Assembly (NCBI GenBank): GCA_009844085.1
Contig: VYCF01000024.1
Span: 62,001 to 126,000 of the forward strand
Source of the DNA: Gammaproteobacteria bacterium
Lineage (GTDB): Bacteria; Pseudomonadota; Gammaproteobacteria; Pseudomonadales; Pseudohongiellaceae
DNA: 64,000 nt
Direction: 5' to 3'
Position 1 is the stretch's first letter; every line of letters begins with the position of its first letter. The notes beneath the pieces were generated by a model. The model saw only the letters and a program-made list of their open reading frames with translations, did not search any database and was not told the DNA's origin. A program made the translations under genes and the position numbers. Of this stretch, positions 5,833-61,011 are shown in pieces.

Positions 5833-6653
5833 TGTGCAACCTCCGGAGCCATGACAGGCAGTTCGATGATTCTTGGCGCATCGAGTTGCGCGGCAACACG
5901 GATGGCGTCCTGTATCGCGGTTCGATATTCGCCCGGCGGCAGTTCGACCCATGCGCGGGCTCGATTGTCCCAGGCCCGGGTTTCCTGCCGGTCGGTAGTC
6001 TGATAGATAAGCGCCACGCGGCCAACGCGGACAATGTTGACGTCGCGTTCTACACCGTCGACTTCGATCGTGTCGGGATAGGTCTCGATGGTGCGCCCAT
6101 ATGCGGTTTCGGTCTGATACATGACCAGAACCTGACGAAACTTCTCGGCGATCGACACGTCGGGATTGTCGATCGCGTCGCGGGCAAACTGGATGCGTCC
6201 TCGCCGATCCTCAAGGAGAAACGGATAATCCAGTTCGATAAAAGTTTCCAGCGCGGCCAGCATCTGCTCCATCAGCCGGGGAATCTCGCGCGTGACTTCT
6301 TCCACCGAGGCGATGGATTCGTCCAGGGTCGCGATATTTTCTTCCTGGATGGAGATGGATTTGCGAAAACCGGCATTGAGTACCAGCAGGGATTCAAGGT
6401 TGTCATTGGCGCGCTTGAATTCCTCGAATGTGGAACTGGCCGAGTCCGCCAGCCGGGTCAGTTCCTGCTGAACTTCCGCCGAGTCGCGGTACTTCTCCCC
6501 AATGGCGCTCATCGCCCGATCGATCAAGCTGCTGTCGACCAGAATCTCGGGCGCCGGCACATTCTGTACCGGAGCATCCTGGGCCTGGGCCGAGCCGGTC
6601 AGGCCCGCCAGCAGCAACGCAATCGTGACGTTACCGAATCTACGTATTTTCAT
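5829..6653 (-). CDS. DUF3450 periplasmic protein, first gene of TonB2 operon
   Basis: 274-residue exported protein with a signal peptide (MKIRRFGNVTIALLLAGLTG, cleavage after AQA). A long predicted coiled coil (about residues 35-150) precedes a small beta-rich tail. This is the DUF3450 type found first in TonB2 operons (VC1548-like). The ATG at 6653 is preferred over the upstream ATG at 6683 because AGGA lies 6 bases before it and the signal peptide starts there. Its molecular role is unknown to me. Context places it at the TtpC-ExbB-ExbD-TonB complex. Confidence 0.85.
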   Translation of the reverse strand: MKIRRFGNVTIALLLAGLTGSAQAQDAPVQNVPAPEILVDSSLIDRAMSAIGEKYRDSAEVQQELTRLADSASSTFEEFKRANDNLESLLVLNAGFRKSISIQEENIATLDESIASVEEVTREIPRLMEQMLAALETFIELDYPFLLEDRRGRIQFARDAIDNPDVSIAEKFRQVLVMYQTETAYGRTIETYPDTIEVDGVERDVNIVRVGRVALIYQTTDRQETRAWDNRARAWVELPPGEYRTAIQDAIRVAAQLDAPRIIELPVMAPEVAQ

Positions 6654-19408: not shown

Positions 19409-19425
19409 TCACAAGAGGGTGTTGT

Positions 19426-19461
19426 GGCTTCGACCCGCCGACGACTCACGCCGTGCAGAAT
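19426..19461 (-). repeat. Short (palindrome-less) copy of the dispersed repeat
   Basis: The minus strand contains TGCACGGCGTGAGTCG joined directly to GCGGGTCGAAGCCAC. These match the left and right flanks of the full copies at 47701-47841 and 60796-61011, with the hairpin absent. It begins 12 bases after the gltX stop, between gltX and the tRNA promoter. Confidence 0.65.
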
Positions 19462-23291: not shown

Positions 23292-26200
23292 CTAACCCGC
23301 CAATCTGGCGATCTGTTTGTCCAGTCTTTCCCTTGATATCGGGAAACTTGTGCCCAGCCGCTGGGCAAAAAGAGAAATCCTGAATTCCTCTATCGACCAG
23401 CGCAAGGATTGGATTAGCCTGGAATCCCCCCGGGAAGAGCGCAATTGCTCAAGCCTCTCCCAATAGTATGCCACTTCCCGCGTGTTTTTTTCATCCGCCT
23501 GGCCGAAATGCGGCGCCTTTTCCAGTCGCACTCCAATGCCTTCCAGATAACGCGGAAAATGTCTGAGCCACTCGAAGGCGGTGTCCCTGAGGAAGTTCGG
23601 CGGGAACATACGCTCGATCTGGCCTTGTATGTCCTGCCGCACGGTTTGACCGGATTTTTCTGGCAATGCCGCAAGTTTTTGCCGGATACCATGTGTCCGT
23701 TCAAGCATCACGGTCAGCAATTGTTCCAATTCGTCCGCAAGCAATGGCAATCTGGTCGCATTGCGCTCGATCGATTCCATGAATTCCCCCTTGCTGCGTG
23801 GAAACCCGTTATTGAGGGCAAAGGCCTCCAGATAGCAGGCGATTGCGGCGTCTTCCTCTATCTCGCCCAGCCCCGGCATGAAGAGAATGCGGGCGGCATT
23901 TGCGTTCCTGAAACGAAGGAATCGTTTGCGCAGGGCATTACGCTGGGCGACGGTGCGTAACATGAAAAGGCGCATCGCGCCCTGCCGGCTTTTCACGTTT
24001 GCTTCCTGACTGTTGTCGAGCAGCGCCACGGAGACCGAATCGACCTCGTCCACAATCGCGGGATAACGCACAAGAACGACGTCGCTCCCGATCTGTACGG
24101 ATTCGGGCAGGTCCTCGAAGTCCCAGTCCCGCAGCCCGCTGCGCTCCAATCGGTGACGTTGACGCCGGACTGTCGGCGCCCGGCCGGTGAAGCGCTTGCG
24201 CAATTCGGCCAGATCGTCCCCTTCAGCCAATATGCGTCCTTGCCGGTCAATGACTTGCAGCCTGGTCCGCAAATGCCCCGGCAATTCGGCTGACAGCAGT
24301 TCTTGGCGCTCGATGAGGCGGGCGCCGGTCCGGTTCATCTGCAACAGCAGGGAATCGGCCAATGCGCCATCGGCGCGCCGCATCCGCGGCAATACACGGT
24401 CGACAAAATCGGGAGCCGGAATGAAATTCCGGCGTTTGTTCTTCGGCAGGCCGCGGATCAGGGCGATACACTTCTCCCGGACCAGGCCCGGCACGGCCCA
24501 GTCGAGATCGGCGGCGGACAATTGCGCCACGAGTTCGACGGGCACGCGCAGGCTTGCGCCGTCACGGCTGCCGCCCGGATCGAACACATAGTCCACCGGC
24601 AGCACGTTGTTCTGCACCTTGACCCGGTCGGGAAACTGGCGCTGCAATTCCTCGAGGGCCTCGCCGCGGAACAATCCCGCGCGCTTCATTTCGAGCGAAC
24701 GATTGCGCCGGTCCGGGTCTTCGGCCAGCCACTGCTCGAGCGTCCTCGTCGATACGACCGATTCCGGCAAGCGCTGATCGTAGAAGCGCTGGATTTCCCT
24801 TTCGTTCACGACGAGTTCGGGGCGGCGGAATTTTTCCTCCTGTTTGCGAAGTTCTTCCAGAAAGGCCCTGTTCCGCTTGAGAAAATCCGCTTCGCTCCTG
24901 ATCCGGTCCTCGACCATGGCCTGATCCAGAAAGATTTCGCGGGCGCCCGCGGCATCGTGCCTGGCGTAATCCACCGCAATCATTTCGCGCAAGGCGAGAC
25001 CGTAAAGGACTGTCTTTTCGTGGACCATCACCTGTTGCCGTTCGCCGCTCCAGAACGGCTCGCCGTATTCCTTGCGCAACAAGTTGCCGGCGAACTCGAT
25101 CACCCATTCCGGTTTGATCCTGGCCGCCATCGACGCGAAAGTGCGCGCCGTGTCTACCCATTCGCTGGTCATGATCCAGCGCACGTTTCTGCGCGCCAGA
25201 GCCGACGACATCGTCAGGACGAGCTTTCGGTTCCTGCTGCCGAGATAAGTTCTGCCGTCGTGGTGACGCGCTACCTGGTTGAGCGAGCCGCTCAGCAATG
25301 CACGATGGATTTCGGCATAGCCGGCTTGTTTGCGACCCTGTTTGCGATTTGGGTCGGCGCCGAGCCGGCGGCAGGCGTTCAGCAGTTGGCGGTGGATTTC
25401 CCGCCATTCCCGCACGCGCTGAAAGGACAGACGGTATTTCCTGCAGAACTTGCGCAATTGCGACTGGGAAATCCGCTCCTTTTCGCATCGTTCCCAAAGT
25501 GTGAGCAAGCCGAGGAAATCGGAGTCGGGATGCGTGAACTCCGCCCACTTTTCATCGTATTGACTTCCCGGGCCCTGGCTGCCCGGCGCCGATTCCCGAA
25601 GGTCGCCAAGACTCATCGCGCTGACGATGATCAGGACTTCCCGCAGGCTGCCGAGTTTCGACGCCGCTACCAGCATGCGTCCGAGTTGCGGTTCAAGCGG
25701 CAGTTCGGCCAACATGCGCCCCGTTTGCGTCAAGCCTCCCGCTTCGGTCAGAGCCCCGATTTCGCGCAGCAACGTGCGGCCGTCATTGATCGATTTCTGC
25801 TCCGGCTCATCGAGAAAGGGAAAATCTTCCGGCTGGCCGAGCCGCAAGGCGCTCATGCGCAGAATCACCGAGGCCAGGTTGGAGCGCTTGATCTCGGGGT
25901 CGGTGAAATCCGGCCGGGCCTCGAAATCCGCTTCGCTATAGAGCCGGATGCAGACGCCGTCCGCGAGCCGCCCGCATCGGCCCTTGCGTTGTTCGGCGCT
26001 GGCTTTCGAGACGGGCTCTATGGGCAGGCGCAACAGTTTGCGTTGCACGCTGTAGCGGCTGATACGGGCAAAGCCGGAGTCGATCACGAAGTGAATTCCC
26101 GGCACCGTCAGCGAAGTTTCCGCGACATTGGTCGAAAGCACGATGCGACGGCCATCGTGCGGTGCGAAAATGCGCTGCTGTTCCTGCGCCCGCAGGCGCG

Positions 26201-27065
26201 AATACAAGGGCAGAATCTCGGTATTCGTCAGGCGCCGCTTGCGTAGATACGCGGCGGTTTCGCGAATCTCCTTCTCGCTGCTGAGAAAAACCAGGACGTC
26301 GCCTTCGCCGTGTTCTTCAAGTTCCGTCAGCGCTTGTGCGATGGCGGCCATCTGCCGGTCTTCCTCATCGGCGTCGGGAACGAGTTGCCCGGGCGGGCGG
26401 TATAGCGTCTCGACGGGATAGCTGCGCCCGGCGACGCGGACAACGGGAGCGCCGCCGAAATGCGCCGCGATACGCTCCACGTCCAGGGTCGCGGACGTGA
26501 CGATCAGTTTCAGATCCTTGCGCCTGGGCAGGATCAGTTTCAGATAGCCGAGCAGGAAATCGATATTGAGCGAGCGCTCGTGGGCCTCGTCGAGGATCAG
26601 CGCCTGGTACTTCTTCAACAGGCGGTCGCGCTGGATTTCCGCAAGCAGGATGCCATCGGTCATCAGCTTCAGCCAGGCGTCCGCCGGCACTCTTTGTCCG
26701 AATCGAATGTGGACGCCGATGCCACGATGGGCTTGGGCGGCGGACGCCGTAAATACATCCCTGTAGGCTTCGGGCTCGGCGTCCTGCCTCGCACGCCCGC
26801 CGCCCAAGCCCATCGCGGCATCGGCTTCGAGTTCGGCGGCGATACGTGCCGCTACCGACATCGCCGCCAGCCTTCGCGGTTGTGTATGTCCGATCATGCC
26901 GCGGCGGGCCAGGCCGGCACGCAGGCAAATCCTGGGTAATTGCGTGGTCTTGCCGGAACCGGTGTCGCCGGCGACGACGATGACCTGGTTTTGTGTCAGC
27001 AGGCGCTCGATTTCAAGGGCGTGCCGGGCGATAGGAAGATCAGTCGGCAGGCTGATCTCACTCAC
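23292..27065 (-). CDS. hrpA: ATP-dependent RNA helicase HrpA
   Basis: 1257-residue DEAH-box helicase. It has Walker A GDTGSGKTTQLPR (about residue 33), the DEAH box (DEAHERSLNIDFLLGY), SATLD, the motif VLSTNVAETSLTVPG, QRKGRCGR and the long HrpA-specific C-terminal region. The known E. coli protein rescues stalled ribosomes. Start: GTG at 27065 (VSEISLPTDLPIARHALEIE), overlapping the fadD stop by 8 bases. The frame extends to 27152 but only inside fadD. Residues 82-116 are encoded by an inserted palindromic repeat that has no counterpart in the E. coli HrpA sequence as I recall it. Confidence 0.95.
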   Translation of the reverse strand: MSEISLPTDLPIARHALEIERLLTQNQVIVVAGDTGSGKTTQLPRICLRAGLARRGMIGHTQPRRLAAMSVAARIAAELEADAAMGLGGGRARQDAEPEAYRDVFTASAAQAHRGIGVHIRFGQRVPADAWLKLMTDGILLAEIQRDRLLKKYQALILDEAHERSLNIDFLLGYLKLILPRRKDLKLIVTSATLDVERIAAHFGGAPVVRVAGRSYPVETLYRPPGQLVPDADEEDRQMAAIAQALTELEEHGEGDVLVFLSSEKEIRETAAYLRKRRLTNTEILPLYSRLRAQEQQRIFAPHDGRRIVLSTNVAETSLTVPGIHFVIDSGFARISRYSVQRKLLRLPIEPVSKASAEQRKGRCGRLADGVCIRLYSEADFEARPDFTDPEIKRSNLASVILRMSALRLGQPEDFPFLDEPEQKSINDGRTLLREIGALTEAGGLTQTGRMLAELPLEPQLGRMLVAASKLGSLREVLIIVSAMSLGDLRESAPGSQGPGSQYDEKWAEFTHPDSDFLGLLTLWERCEKERISQSQLRKFCRKYRLSFQRVREWREIHRQLLNACRRLGADPNRKQGRKQAGYAEIHRALLSGSLNQVARHHDGRTYLGSRNRKLVLTMSSALARRNVRWIMTSEWVDTARTFASMAARIKPEWVIEFAGNLLRKEYGEPFWSGERQQVMVHEKTVLYGLALREMIAVDYARHDAAGAREIFLDQAMVEDRIRSEADFLKRNRAFLEELRKQEEKFRRPELVVNEREIQRFYDQRLPESVVSTRTLEQWLAEDPDRRNRSLEMKRAGLFRGEALEELQRQFPDRVKVQNNVLPVDYVFDPGGSRDGASLRVPVELVAQLSAADLDWAVPGLVREKCIALIRGLPKNKRRNFIPAPDFVDRVLPRMRRADGALADSLLLQMNRTGARLIERQELLSAELPGHLRTRLQVIDRQGRILAEGDDLAELRKRFTGRAPTVRRQRHRLERSGLRDWDFEDLPESVQIGSDVVLVRYPAIVDEVDSVSVALLDNSQEANVKSRQGAMRLFMLRTVAQRNALRKRFLRFRNANAARILFMPGLGEIEEDAAIACYLEAFALNNGFPRSKGEFMESIERNATRLPLLADELEQLLTVMLERTHGIRQKLAALPEKSGQTVRQDIQGQIERMFPPNFLRDTAFEWLRHFPRYLEGIGVRLEKAPHFGQADEKNTREVAYYWERLEQLRSSRGDSRLIQSLRWSIEEFRISLFAQRLGTSFPISRERLDKQIARLAG
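26718..26822 (-). repeat. Palindromic repeat inserted in frame in hrpA
   Basis: Exactly 105 bases. Arms 26718-26741 and 26799-26822 are inverted repeats matching at 23 of 24 positions. The core, read on the minus strand (GGCGTGCGAGGCAGGACGCC and on to GTATTTACGGCGTCCGC), is nearly identical to the cores at 47741-47794 and 52787-52839. The arms differ entirely from those copies. The insertion adds 35 codons (including AEPEAYRDVFTASA) between helicase motif Ia and the GIGVHIRFG segment without shifting the frame. Confidence 0.85.
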
Positions 27066-28680
27066 GCAGTTCCCGCCGCAGGATCTTGCCGATGTTGGAT
27101 TTCGGCAAGTCCTCAACAAATTCGATCTTGCGGGGAATCTTGTAGGCGGCAAGTCCCTGGCGGCACCAGGACTGGACGTCCTCGGGTCCGGGGGCTTCTT
27201 CTCCCGCGACCACGAACAGTTTCACCGCCTCCCCGGTTCGTTCGTCGGGCACGCCGATGGCCGCACTTTCAATGACTTGCGGGTGCCGATTGACCCAGTC
27301 TTCGATCTCGTTGGGAAAAACGTTGAATCCGGAAACGAGGATCATGTCCTTCTTGCGGTCGACGATGCTGATGTAGCCGTCTTCGCTGATGTTGACGTAA
27401 TCGCCGGTGCTGAACCAACCGTCCGCGTTGATGCTGTCCTGGGTCGCCTCTTCCCGGCCGTAATAGCCGGCCATCACCTGGGGGCCGCGCACCTGCAATT
27501 CGCCGACCGAGCCGATGGGCAATTCGTTCGCCTCGTCGTCGACGACGCGCAATTCGGTCTCGGGCACTGCCTTCCCCACCGTGCCGCGCCGCACCTCACC
27601 GGGGATATTGACCGCGACAACCGGCGAGCATTCAGTCAGGCCGTATCCTTCGAGGATTTCGCAGCCCGTCAGTTCCTGCCAGTCTTCGGCGATCGAACTC
27701 GACATCGCCATGCCGCCGGCGCCGCAGAACCGATACGTCGAGAAATCCACCTGCCCGATCTTCGGATGTCTGAGCAAGGCAAGATACAAGGTGTTGATGC
27801 CGGCAAAGCCGTGAATCGTGTTACGCCTGAGCAATTTGACGAGCGCGTCGAGATCGCGGGGATTGGGCACGAGGATGTTGTGGCTGCCGGCATAGGCCAT
27901 GGTCAGCAAATGCAACTGAAAGGCGTAGGTGTGGTAGAGCGGCAGCGGCGCGACCACGGTATCCGATTGATCGTCCATCACCAGCGATGTTCTCGAACGC
28001 AATTGCATCATGTTGGCGATGAGATTGCGGTGCGTGAGCATGGCGCCCTTCGCGACTCCGGTCGTGCCGCCGGTATAGAGAATCAGGGCGGTGTTTTCTC
28101 CCGCCCTGGTCGCCGCGGTCCCTATCGGGTCCGAGCCGACCGCCTCGCGGAAGAAGTGCGCCCCGGGCAATTCATAGGCCGGAATCATTTTCCGCAAGTG
28201 TTTTGCCGCCAGGTTGACCAGTGTTCTCTTCGGCTCGGGCAACAGGTCCCCGAGGCGGGCGATGACGACGTGTTCGATATCCGTGTCCGCGATGACGCTT
28301 TCGAGCTTGTCGCAGAATGCTTCGAGAACGACGACGGCTTTCGCGCCGGAATCGCGGAACTGGTGCTTCATTTCCGGCGCCGTATAAAGCGGATTGGTGG
28401 TGACGATGACGAGATCGGCCTTGATCGCCGCGTAGACCACGACCGGAAACTGCAACAGGTTGGGCAGTTGAATCGCGATCCTGTCGCCCGGGTTCATTTG
28501 CAGCTTATTGCGCAGGAAGCCTGCGAGGCGGTTGCTCAGGTCATCGATTTCGCGGTAGGTCAGACTGTGGCCGAAGCAGGTGAACGCCGGCAATGGCCCA
28601 TGGGCGGAGGAAACGTGATCGAGTACCTCGGCCAGAGATGCATATTGTTCAGGGCGGAGTTCGGGGGGCAGCTTTTCCAT
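27058..28680 (-). CDS. Long-chain fatty acid-CoA ligase (FadD-like)
   Basis: 540-residue AMP-forming acyl-CoA synthetase. It has the AMP-binding motif ILYTGGTTGVAKGAMLTHRN, EGYGLTECSPV and the fatty-acyl-CoA signature DGWFSTGDYVNISEDGYISI followed by DRKKDMILVSGFNVFPNEIE, with the catalytic lysine in SNIGKILRREL at the C-terminus. It activates fatty acids to acyl-CoA for degradation or lipid synthesis. It begins 18 bases after the VWA gene and its stop overlaps hrpA. Length and order resemble FadD, but chain-length specificity is not readable. Confidence 0.92.
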   Translation of the reverse strand: MEKLPPELRPEQYASLAEVLDHVSSAHGPLPAFTCFGHSLTYREIDDLSNRLAGFLRNKLQMNPGDRIAIQLPNLLQFPVVVYAAIKADLVIVTTNPLYTAPEMKHQFRDSGAKAVVVLEAFCDKLESVIADTDIEHVVIARLGDLLPEPKRTLVNLAAKHLRKMIPAYELPGAHFFREAVGSDPIGTAATRAGENTALILYTGGTTGVAKGAMLTHRNLIANMMQLRSRTSLVMDDQSDTVVAPLPLYHTYAFQLHLLTMAYAGSHNILVPNPRDLDALVKLLRRNTIHGFAGINTLYLALLRHPKIGQVDFSTYRFCGAGGMAMSSSIAEDWQELTGCEILEGYGLTECSPVVAVNIPGEVRRGTVGKAVPETELRVVDDEANELPIGSVGELQVRGPQVMAGYYGREEATQDSINADGWFSTGDYVNISEDGYISIVDRKKDMILVSGFNVFPNEIEDWVNRHPQVIESAAIGVPDERTGEAVKLFVVAGEEAPGPEDVQSWCRQGLAAYKIPRKIEFVEDLPKSNIGKILRRELRE

Positions 28681-37466: not shown

Positions 37467-37489
37467 GGTGGCTTAGATCCGTCGGCGAC

Positions 37490-37500
<11 letters not shown>
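37467..37500 (-). repeat. Short (palindrome-less) repeat copy overlapping the clpB stop
   Basis: The minus strand reads CCACAGCGTGAGTCGC joined to CGACGGATCTAAGCCACC. These are the left and right flanks of the full palindromic copies with no hairpin between. The clpB stop codon TGA (37492-37490) is part of the repeat. Confidence 0.65.
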
Positions 37501-47647: not shown

Positions 47648-47841
47648 GAGATTCTGCGACTCCGCTTCGCTCCGCGCAGAATGACAGTCAGTCGGTTGCG
47701 CACTGCGTGAGTCGCCGTCGGCTGGCGGGAGGTTCAGCGGGCGTGCGAGACAGGGATGTCGAGCCCGAAGCCTACATGGACGTATTTACGGCGTCCGCTG
47801 AACCTCCCGCCAGTCGGCGGCGACGGATCGAAGCCACCAAT
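47648..47841 (+). repeat. Full palindromic repeat with accessory hairpin, pilV-tauE intergenic
   Basis: An accessory hairpin (ATTCTGCG 47651-47658 with CGCAGAAT 47675-47682) is followed by the flank GCACTGCGTGAGTCG. The main palindrome has arms 47711-47740 and 47795-47824, matching at 28 of 30 positions, around a 54-base core. The right flank CGACGGATCGAAGCCACCAA completes it. It fills most of the 252 bases between pilV and the tauE-like gene. The same composite layout recurs at 60746-61011. Confidence 0.88.
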
Positions 47842-52744: not shown

Positions 52745-52880
52745 TGCACTATGTGAGTCTCCGTCGGCTGGCGGGAGGTTTAGCGGGCGTGCGAGGCAGG
52801 ATGCCGAGCCCGAAGCCTACAGGGAAGTATTTACGGCGTCCGCTTAACCTCCCGCCAGCCGGCGGAGACGGATCGAAGTC
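52745..52880 (+). repeat. Full palindromic repeat upstream of miaB
   Basis: Left flank TGCACTATGTGAGTC, arms 52757-52786 and 52840-52869 (28 of 30 positions pair or wobble), core 52787-52839 nearly identical to the hrpA copy, right flank GACGGATCGAAG. The accessory ATTCTGCG hairpin is absent. Arm base pair GTCTCC/GGAGAC replaces GTCGCC/GGCGAC of other copies on both sides. It lies between divergent DUF1820 and miaB and ends just before the miaB promoter. Confidence 0.88.
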
Positions 52881-52902
52881 AATGTTCTCCGGAAGATTAC
52901 GT

Positions 52903-59733: not shown

Positions 59734-60782
59734 AGATCCGCGGCGACCAACTTTCCTCGACCCTGGCGAGGCAATCCGCGCCACTTTACTGGCTGGCAGG
59801 AGACGAGATCCTGCTGCTGCGCGAGGCCGCCGACGAAGTACGCAGACATTGGCGCCAAGCCGGTTTTACCGAACGCGAAGTATTTCACGTCGAGCAAGGC
59901 TTTGACTGGAACGATTTTCTCTATCAATTCGACGCCACCTCGCTGTTCGCCGAACAAAAACTGCTCGAATTACGCCTTTACTCCGCCAAACTGGACGCCA
60001 AGGGCCGGGAAGCGATCACCGCCTGGCTGGACAAGGCCCCCGAAGACTATCGCGTACTGATCTCCGGCCCCAGAATCGACTCCTCGGTCTTGTCCGCCAA
60101 ATGGTTCAAAAACCTGGACGACAAACTCGTCCTGGTCCAGATCTGGCCCATAGACCGAGCCAGGCTGCCCGCCTGGCTGCGGCAGCGCCTGGCAGCCGCC
60201 GGAATACAACCCGACGACGACGCATTGCAAATACTGACCGACCGCGTCGAAGGCAACCTGCTGGCAGCCGAGCAGGAAATCGAAAAACTCGCCCTGCTGG
60301 CAGACGCCGAACCCGGCGCCAACAAAAGATTAACCGGCAACGACGTCCTGCGCCTCGTTTCCGACAGCTCCCGCTACGACCTCGGCAAACTCGCCGATGC
60401 CGCCCTCAAAGGCGACGCAGAACGCGCCCAGCGCGTCCTGGGCGGCCTACGCGCCGAAGGCGTATTCCCACTACTGATCCTCGCCGTTCTCACCCGGGAA
60501 CTCCGACAACTACTGACAATCCTCGACCAGATCGACCAGGGCCACGAAATCGGCCAGGCAATGTCCGCCGCCCGCATATGGCAAAGCCGAAAACCCATCG
60601 TCTCCCAAGCCCTCAAGCGCCTGACCGCCGACAAGACCCAGCAAATGCTCGAACACTGCAAACTAATCGACCACTCAGTCAAAGGCCTCCACCGCGCCAA
60701 CCCCTGGGACGAGTTAAGCCTGCTGGTATTGCGAATCTGCGGCGAGAGATTCTGCGACTACGCTTCGCTCCGCGCAGAATGA
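59730..60782 (+). CDS. holA: DNA polymerase III subunit delta
   Basis: 350-residue clamp-loader subunit with the N-terminal AAA-like fold (LYWLAGDEILLLREAADEVR), middle ISGPRIDSSVLSAKWFKNLD and the C-terminal collar (YDLGKLADAALKGDAERAQR). It starts at TTG 59730, with TTGA overlapping the lptE stop. The last residues (RFCDYASLRAE) and stop are encoded by the accessory hairpin of a dispersed repeat, so the natural C-terminus may have been altered. nadD, often next, is absent. Confidence 0.93.
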   Translation: MKIRGDQLSSTLARQSAPLYWLAGDEILLLREAADEVRRHWRQAGFTEREVFHVEQGFDWNDFLYQFDATSLFAEQKLLELRLYSAKLDAKGREAITAWLDKAPEDYRVLISGPRIDSSVLSAKWFKNLDDKLVLVQIWPIDRARLPAWLRQRLAAAGIQPDDDALQILTDRVEGNLLAAEQEIEKLALLADAEPGANKRLTGNDVLRLVSDSSRYDLGKLADAALKGDAERAQRVLGGLRAEGVFPLLILAVLTRELRQLLTILDQIDQGHEIGQAMSAARIWQSRKPIVSQALKRLTADKTQQMLEHCKLIDHSVKGLHRANPWDELSLLVLRICGERFCDYASLRAE

Positions 60783-61011
60783 CATTGGTTGAGGCTTGCA
60801 CTGCGTGAGTCGCCGCCGGGCTGTGCGGGGTTCAGCGGGCGTCCCCGACATGGATGTCGGGGCCGAAGCGTATAGGGGTGAAGGCAAGCGTTTATGAAGC
60901 GCAGCTTCATGCGCAGCCGGAACGACGCCAAGCTGTGCTTGGCGGCTGGACCGTATTCACAGCGTCCGCTGAACCCCGCACAGCCCGGCGGCGACGGATC
61001 GAGGCCACCAA
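60746..61011 (+). repeat. Longest palindromic repeat copy, between holA and M3 peptidase
   Basis: The accessory hairpin (60749-60780) overlaps the holA end. The main palindrome has arms 60809-60838 and 60966-60995 with a perfect 30 of 30 match. Its core is expanded by about 70 bases relative to other copies and holds three more perfect hairpins: 60843-60862 (8 bp), 60894-60910 (7 bp) and 60926-60944 (8 bp). Right flank CGACGGATCGAGGCCACCAA follows. It sits between convergent genes and could also terminate transcription both ways. Confidence 0.88.

Follow-up and report, generated by a model that had tools for sequence, protein, structure and literature searches.

In a gammaproteobacterium, a palindromic repeat lies in frame inside hrpA, the gene for a DEAH-box RNA helicase. 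The insertion is real, is common to three genomes, and is tolerated. We consider it likely that a repeat related to YPAL/RU-2 entered this gene once and is a passenger there, and that elsewhere the repeat is kept as RNA, as a probable binder of CsrA/RsmA. The DNA analyzed is a stretch of 64,000 nucleotides from contig VYCF01000024.1, here called the window.

An in-frame repeat in hrpA

By open reading frame, Pfam, and orthologue similarity, hrpA occupies positions 23292 to 27152 of the minus strand and is complete to DUF3418. Its start codon is uncertain, with orthologue similarity beginning at 27062, and the genome holds a single hrpA match at an E value of 1e-30 or below. The earlier note read a palindromic repeat in frame in this gene, and the reading frame is indeed open across the segment. 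Alignment of orthologues identifies 35 residues, HrpA residues 79 to 113 (26724 to 26828, minus strand), in place of a common loop of 6 residues. The length first proposed stands, and the position moves from the proposed residues 82 to 116; because most orthologues already have 6 residues at this point, the net gain is 29 residues (87 bp) over the usual loop and not 35. A phmmer alignment to Escherichia coli HrpA (9ggr) ends at residue 82 and restarts at 115, with 3 residues between.

The segment contains a 61-bp repeat core (26740 to 26800, minus strand) that recurs without change in four other copies of the same genome and in which four of the six reading frames are open. Self-comparison gives two inverted arms of 35 nt, one downstream in hrpA (26712 to 26746), taking in the host codons for GIGV, and one upstream (26794 to 26828). 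They are 91% complementary and longer than the 24-base arms described before. Folded as RNA, positions 26712 to 26828 have a z-score of -10.0, and none of 200 shuffles is equally stable. Misassembly of the palindrome was considered and is unlikely, as three separate assemblies have inserts at the same site.

The helicase itself appears intact around the insert, as had been claimed: an alignment of 12 sequences has the residues of what we take to be motifs I, Ia, DEAH, SAT, and QRKGRCGR in place and, with few exceptions, invariant. Orthologue alignment puts the insertion point in a loop that follows the helix after motif Ia and precedes the strand GVGVxVRF. Structure prediction for the domain, with 12 sequences as input, gave a poor model (mean pLDDT, 46.3), and the location of the insert in a loop of the HrpA fold is probable from sequence alignment. 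The Pfam DEAD match of the protein begins only after the insert.

A dispersed family of palindromes

A 141-base query around the core has at least 42 matches in its own genome, a lower bound since 40 of 122 candidates were scored; three of these are accounted for by the hrpA copy together with its arms, and at least 39 lie elsewhere. The left end of the repeat gives 76 matches against 2 for a reversed control, and the hairpin motif has 52 matches in the genome and none in the control. Full copies, mostly 135 to 139 bp, are built as GCACnnnGTGAGTCGCCGTC, a variable arm, the core, the complement of the arm, and GACGGCGACGGATCGAAGCCAC, and the copies of this genome end in GCACnnnGTGAGTCGCC and GGATCGAAGCCAC. 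The arms vary between copies but pair, with at least 22 Watson-Crick pairs among the first 26 positions in 36 of 37 copies. Coreless short forms of 33 to 56 bp and long forms of 190 to 211 bp both exist.

Repeat searches of the window found, on the plus strand, full-length intergenic elements of 138 bp (47700 to 47837) and 137 bp (52746 to 52882) and an extended intergenic element of 211 bp (60798 to 61008) with a further hairpin nested in its core. Two coreless forms, consisting of the feet only, are on the minus strand, one a probable deletion derivative (37468 to 37500) and the other upstream of a tRNA gene (19424 to 19456). The hrpA core is 97% complementary to positions 52783 to 52843 and, over 45 nt, 91% complementary to positions 47754 to 47798, in an element whose core spans 47737 to 47798. 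A shared core had been proposed for repeats at 47648 and 52745; the second proposal was right, and in the first the true match is 47700 to 47837, positions 47648 to 47686 being a different repeat. That unrelated short palindrome (GAGATTCTGCG...CGCAGAATGACA) is found immediately upstream of two elements, at 47648 to 47686 and 60746 to 60784, and other copies in the genome, L049 and L053 for example, are preceded by similar letters.

At gathering score, Rfam recognized only a tRNA in the whole window, and a permissive search with one element returned VA RNA and matches of microRNA type, none of which reached its gathering score. The repeat has no match in a plasmid collection and two in viral contigs. 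Some copies are themselves interrupted. An end resembling that of an insertion sequence (TGTATGGTCCGCCCC... or its other end) breaks the second of the two core hairpins described below in L074 (near 22 to 82), L086, L099, L038 (near 3906), and L022 (near 7273); these interruptions lie partly at contig ends and perhaps reflect an element that targets this repeat. In L096, a copy is broken by another, apparently mobile sequence.

Conserved hairpins and putative CsrA/RsmA sites

Fold and copy comparison define two hairpins within the core, both on the minus strand: hairpin 1, GGC-AGGAC-GCC with an A(N)GGA loop (26778 to 26788), and hairpin 2, UACAGGGAUGUA with an ANGGAN loop (26754 to 26765). More generally, hairpin 2 has the form UACANGGANGUA, followed by UUYACRGCG. 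We examined 122 copies, the remainder of 131 motif matches after removal of 9 with a low arm score, of which 2 are plainly false. All 122 have GGA on the sense strand in the hairpin 1 stretch. The columns of hairpin 2 read C 121, A 122, N, G 121, G 121, A 122, N, G 122, so that in CANGGANG both N are variable and the other six columns are kept in 121 to 122 of 122 copies, a conservation that is partly, perhaps largely, built in by BLAST and by a search pattern that included hairpin 2. The loops are conserved on stems that covary: one outer pair of hairpin 2 is U-A in 108 copies and C-G in 14, and another is A-U in 104, C-G in 16, and G-C in 2. In the 23-nt hairpin 2 motif, positions 1 and 19 also covary for the most part (CC...ACGGCG or CG...ACAGCG, C with G and G with A), a hint of an additional contact beyond the hairpin.

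Across the class, a pattern for hairpin 2 only was used, which leaves hairpin 1 free of search bias. It matched 35 of 369 gammaproteobacterial genomes, the source genome included (34 of 272 genera), with up to 347 matches in one genome and none in the reversed control. Thirty-one copies with clear stems remained after 8 of 39 distinct matches were dropped by score; 7 of these 8 have GGA and 1 does not. Another 3 matches, at contig edges, were also left out. In the 31, the first hairpin contains GGA in 28, is flipped in 1 (L241), and is absent or lacks GGA in 2 (L225 and L242). Flipped forms of hairpin 1 were also seen in L166 and L167. Stem sequence differs widely between genomes in these copies.

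These features recall ligands of the CsrA/RsmA family, in which A(N)GGA is presented in a hairpin loop, as it is in both hairpins here. For CsrA, SELEX gives the consensus RUACARGGAUGU, in which ACA and GGA never vary and GU is missing from a single ligand (PMC7652899), and hairpin 2 with its preceding base agrees at 11 of the 12 positions. The same paper gives the CsrB repeats as CAGGA(U/A/C)G in loops and the RsmE ligands as an ANGGAN hexaloop with variable N. Judged by these sequences, the repeat core is probably a pair of candidate CsrA/RsmA-binding hairpins. The source genome has one copy of csrA; the gene was found in 16 of 18 tested genomes that carry the element, including 13 of the 13 at least 90% complete, and in 17 of 19 tested genomes lacking the motif, and its presence says little because csrA is nearly universal. 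In two genomes with many copies, G146 (88% complete) and G419 (85%), no csrA was found, and most of their listed copies have a ...GGAGG loop in hairpin 2. Literature searches, which did not extend to the original description of YPAL, found, among the papers listed, none linking dispersed repeats with CsrA and none mentioning both YPAL and CsrA.

On our preferred reading, copies outside genes would use a long stem, with hypervariable and compensated arms, to present two A(N)GGA(N) hairpins to CsrA/RsmA. A broader version would make YPAL-like repeats mobile CsrA/RsmA modules across the class, forming a dispersed sponge, with the hrpA copy a rare misplacement. Up to hundreds of copies per genome would then spread CsrA sites into untranslated regions, the loops being selected and the arms free to change as long as pairing holds. 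This we regard as a serious possibility that stops just short of being probable.

RNA or mobile DNA

If the stem functions at the RNA level on the core strand, G.U pairs should be tolerated and A.C mismatches should not, whereas a palindrome acting as DNA would treat both alike. One duplicate row was dropped before mismatches were counted. In 67 copies, the variable arms contain 12 G.T, 2 A.C, and 14 other mismatches (binomial P of 0.013 for G.T versus A.C, an optimistic value because copies share ancestry and the counts are not independent). The outer stem of the same set has 39 G.T versus 5 A.C; 54 copies of other lineages have 75 versus 20, some fixed inner G.T pairs included, and the 31 class-wide copies have 57 versus 22. 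On the RNA reading, the elements would be transcribed. Speaking against the RNA reading, the copies have no orientation bias relative to neighboring genes, which an RNA acting in a host transcript should show: upstream genes are co-oriented in 19 of 31 cases and downstream genes in 24 of 44, with 8 of 53 copies excluded as lying inside crude gene calls.

The lack of orientation bias is what would be expected if the repeats were purely selfish DNA, their hairpins recognized in single-stranded form by a transposase yet to be named and their loops kept for mobilization and not for CsrA. Such a reading would also accommodate the flipping of hairpin 1 and of whole cores and the resemblance of coreless short forms to palindrome deletions. 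YPAL, moreover, has empty and filled sites and target duplications of 3 to 26 bp, as described in excerpts of PMC2229807. Against these stand the preference for G.U on the core-sense strand and the match between the variable loop positions and those that vary in RsmE ligands (PMC7652899, in the portion available). In 53 copies of the source genome, furthermore, no signal of target duplication was found (mean longest shared word of 3.43 versus 3.38 in shuffled pairs, a value reached by 65 of 200 shuffles); these copies may be old. Overall, we find selfish DNA possible and lean toward the CsrA/RsmA interpretation.

Relation to known repeats

The only paper found to contain the hairpin letters is Delihas 2007 (PMC2759123), whose available text concerns enterobacterial repeats fused in frame to genes. 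The element core in the viral contig L221 agrees by eye with the RU-2 sequence in that text. It aligns with the two intergenic window elements that were compared over 43 to 55 nt at 80 to 81% identity (blastn, E values between 1e-8 and 1e-10, five short sequences being searched) and is identical to the hrpA copy at 26 of 27 nt. YPAL/RU-2 and the window family also have in common the order hairpin 1, GAG, CCTACANGGANGTATTTACGGCG, a long stem, and a mostly intergenic location. They differ in arms and ends, and YPAL is about 168 bp long with ends of its own, compared with the 135 to 139 bp of most copies here. Because of the differing arms and ends and the missing target-duplication signal, we regard the window family as YPAL related and not as YPAL. 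A palindrome resembling a terminator (GGCCACCTGTGTGGCCT) recurs as direct repeats on both sides of the YPAL-type element at 6100 to 6400 of L221.

The earlier note compared the insert with the palindromic elements of Rickettsia and pointed out that here the host is a gammaproteobacterium. The comparison is an analogy, and it holds for a palindromic repeat read in frame within a conserved gene. The Rickettsia elements are described as often entering genes, and many different ones (PMC10969869); here hrpA is the only such gene found. By core sequence, the nearest relative found is YPAL/RU-2. A gammaproteobacterial host is not new: in-frame fusions of ERIC/RU-1 and RU-2 in enterobacteria were reported in 2007 (PMC2759123 and PMC2229807, in excerpts), and in-frame insertion was therefore already known outside Rickettsia. 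ERIC/RU-1 resembles the present case as a small repeat in frame with gammaproteobacterial genes and is, by description, a different repeat.

Two further systems invite comparison. The sponge RNAs CsrB and RsmZ likewise carry GGA in hairpin loops, here two per element, and the loop forms are those of CsrB repeats and RsmE ligands; they are single RNAs with many hairpins, whereas the window family is dispersed as two-hairpin copies. REP/REPIN sequences mobilized by RAYT are palindromes of 20 to 40 bp that bear a GTAG or CGTC tag and are accompanied by a RAYT gene, and the length of the present elements does not fit them.

History of the insertion

Thirty-three distinct orthologue sites, the window's included, were read; they represent 41 loci, 11 from one search and 30 from among 64 relative genomes with a match, after identical ones were merged. 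The loop has 6 residues at 29 sites, 35 at 2 (the window and L010), 62 at 1 (L009, identical to L120), and 9 at 1 (L017, identical to L121). The earlier note proposed a look for relatives without the insert, and close ones do exist; a distant genus whose HrpA has these residues unrelated to any repeat is not among the 33 sites. Inserts thus occupy 3 of 33 sites, and their interiors all differ. The window has the core in sense orientation. In L010 (OX638341) it is inverted, another peptide is read, and the arms are spelled differently yet again pair. L009/L120 has a longer core, with an insert 27 residues longer. At L017/L121 the loop is 3 residues above normal and footprint-like, with apparent remains of both arms. 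The segment thus belongs to a repeat family, its presence in hrpA is restricted to one clade, and its interiors differ at a single site. Of the other two inserts, that of L009 has an altered hairpin 2 and is absent from the motif matches, and that of L010, being inverted, yields a sense RNA lacking A(N)GGA(N)-type loops. Two origins for the palindrome were set aside on inspection: orthologues without the insert have no palindrome at the site that could have been a target, and single arms do not look self-complementary by eye, as a palindromic target duplication would.

The simplest history would be a single old, tolerated insertion that has since been remodeled. A nonautonomous, dispersed stem-loop repeat with a YPAL/RU-2-like core would have entered hrpA once, in frame, in an ancestor shared by a few species within the source genus. 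With four of six core frames open, translation would have kept running, and the arms, as inverted repeats, could later have allowed the interior to flip, expand, or be deleted. HrpA would tolerate 29 to 56 extra residues in this loop, the insert being a nearly neutral passenger. Three different interiors at one site, one of them inverted, could also reflect several independent insertions at a hot spot, which we think unlikely: two species share junctions and the 35-residue length, the arms are similar in all three, a fourth site has a footprint-like loop, and repeated independent entry at one loop is improbable. Elsewhere, one element (L036 and L037) has nearly identical flanks in two genomes with clearly diverged HrpA proteins, which suggests recent regional transfer.

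HrpA is under purifying selection, and the insert is much less so. Outside the insert, dN/dS is 0.18 against L009, 0.15 against L010, 0.15 against L011, and 0.16 against L017; inside, over 35 codons, it is 0.64 against L009, 0.64 against L010, and 1.05 between L009 and L010. At the protein level, the insert is probably nearly neutral. Retention in three genomes, in a gene under purifying selection, might suggest that HrpA has gained a useful new function from it, a very improbable reading given values of 0.64 to 1.05 inside it, a peptide that is not conserved, a core read in opposite orientations and in one case much longer, and only a short remnant in L017.

Entry into a conserved domain had been put forward as a capacity of the repeat, and this is true of hrpA and of no second gene that we found. 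No other split conserved gene was seen among the 131 motif matches, of which 98 have at least 180 bases of flank on both sides and 33 have short flanks; the false matches, at least 2, lie in what is presumably a citrate synthase-like gene. Pfam was applied to 38 open reading frames spanning the core, two of them HrpA, and the other 36 have domains only downstream of the element or none, a weak test because even in HrpA the insert has no Pfam domain on both sides. Pfam alone would have missed the HrpA case, for which the orthologue alignment is the proof. A codon usage score was not decisive, ranking L039 and L053 above hrpA; L053 has no Pfam domain, and L039 has only a MerR domain, downstream of the element. 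Among the copies examined, hrpA is the sole genic copy found, and the copies otherwise seem to lie between genes; genic entry does not look habitual in this family.

Implications

The hrpA site offers a natural series, from the plain loop through the insert, the inverted insert, and the expanded insert to a footprint-like loop, that shows the fate of a palindrome trapped in a conserved gene. The putative CsrA-like constant part of these widespread repeats is an unexpected result and more interesting than the insertion itself. YPAL-like repeats have been described as mobile hairpins that might affect the stability of upstream transcripts (PMC2229807, in excerpts). Should the part they hold constant prove to be two CsrA sites, palindromes that look like junk would join a global regulatory circuit.
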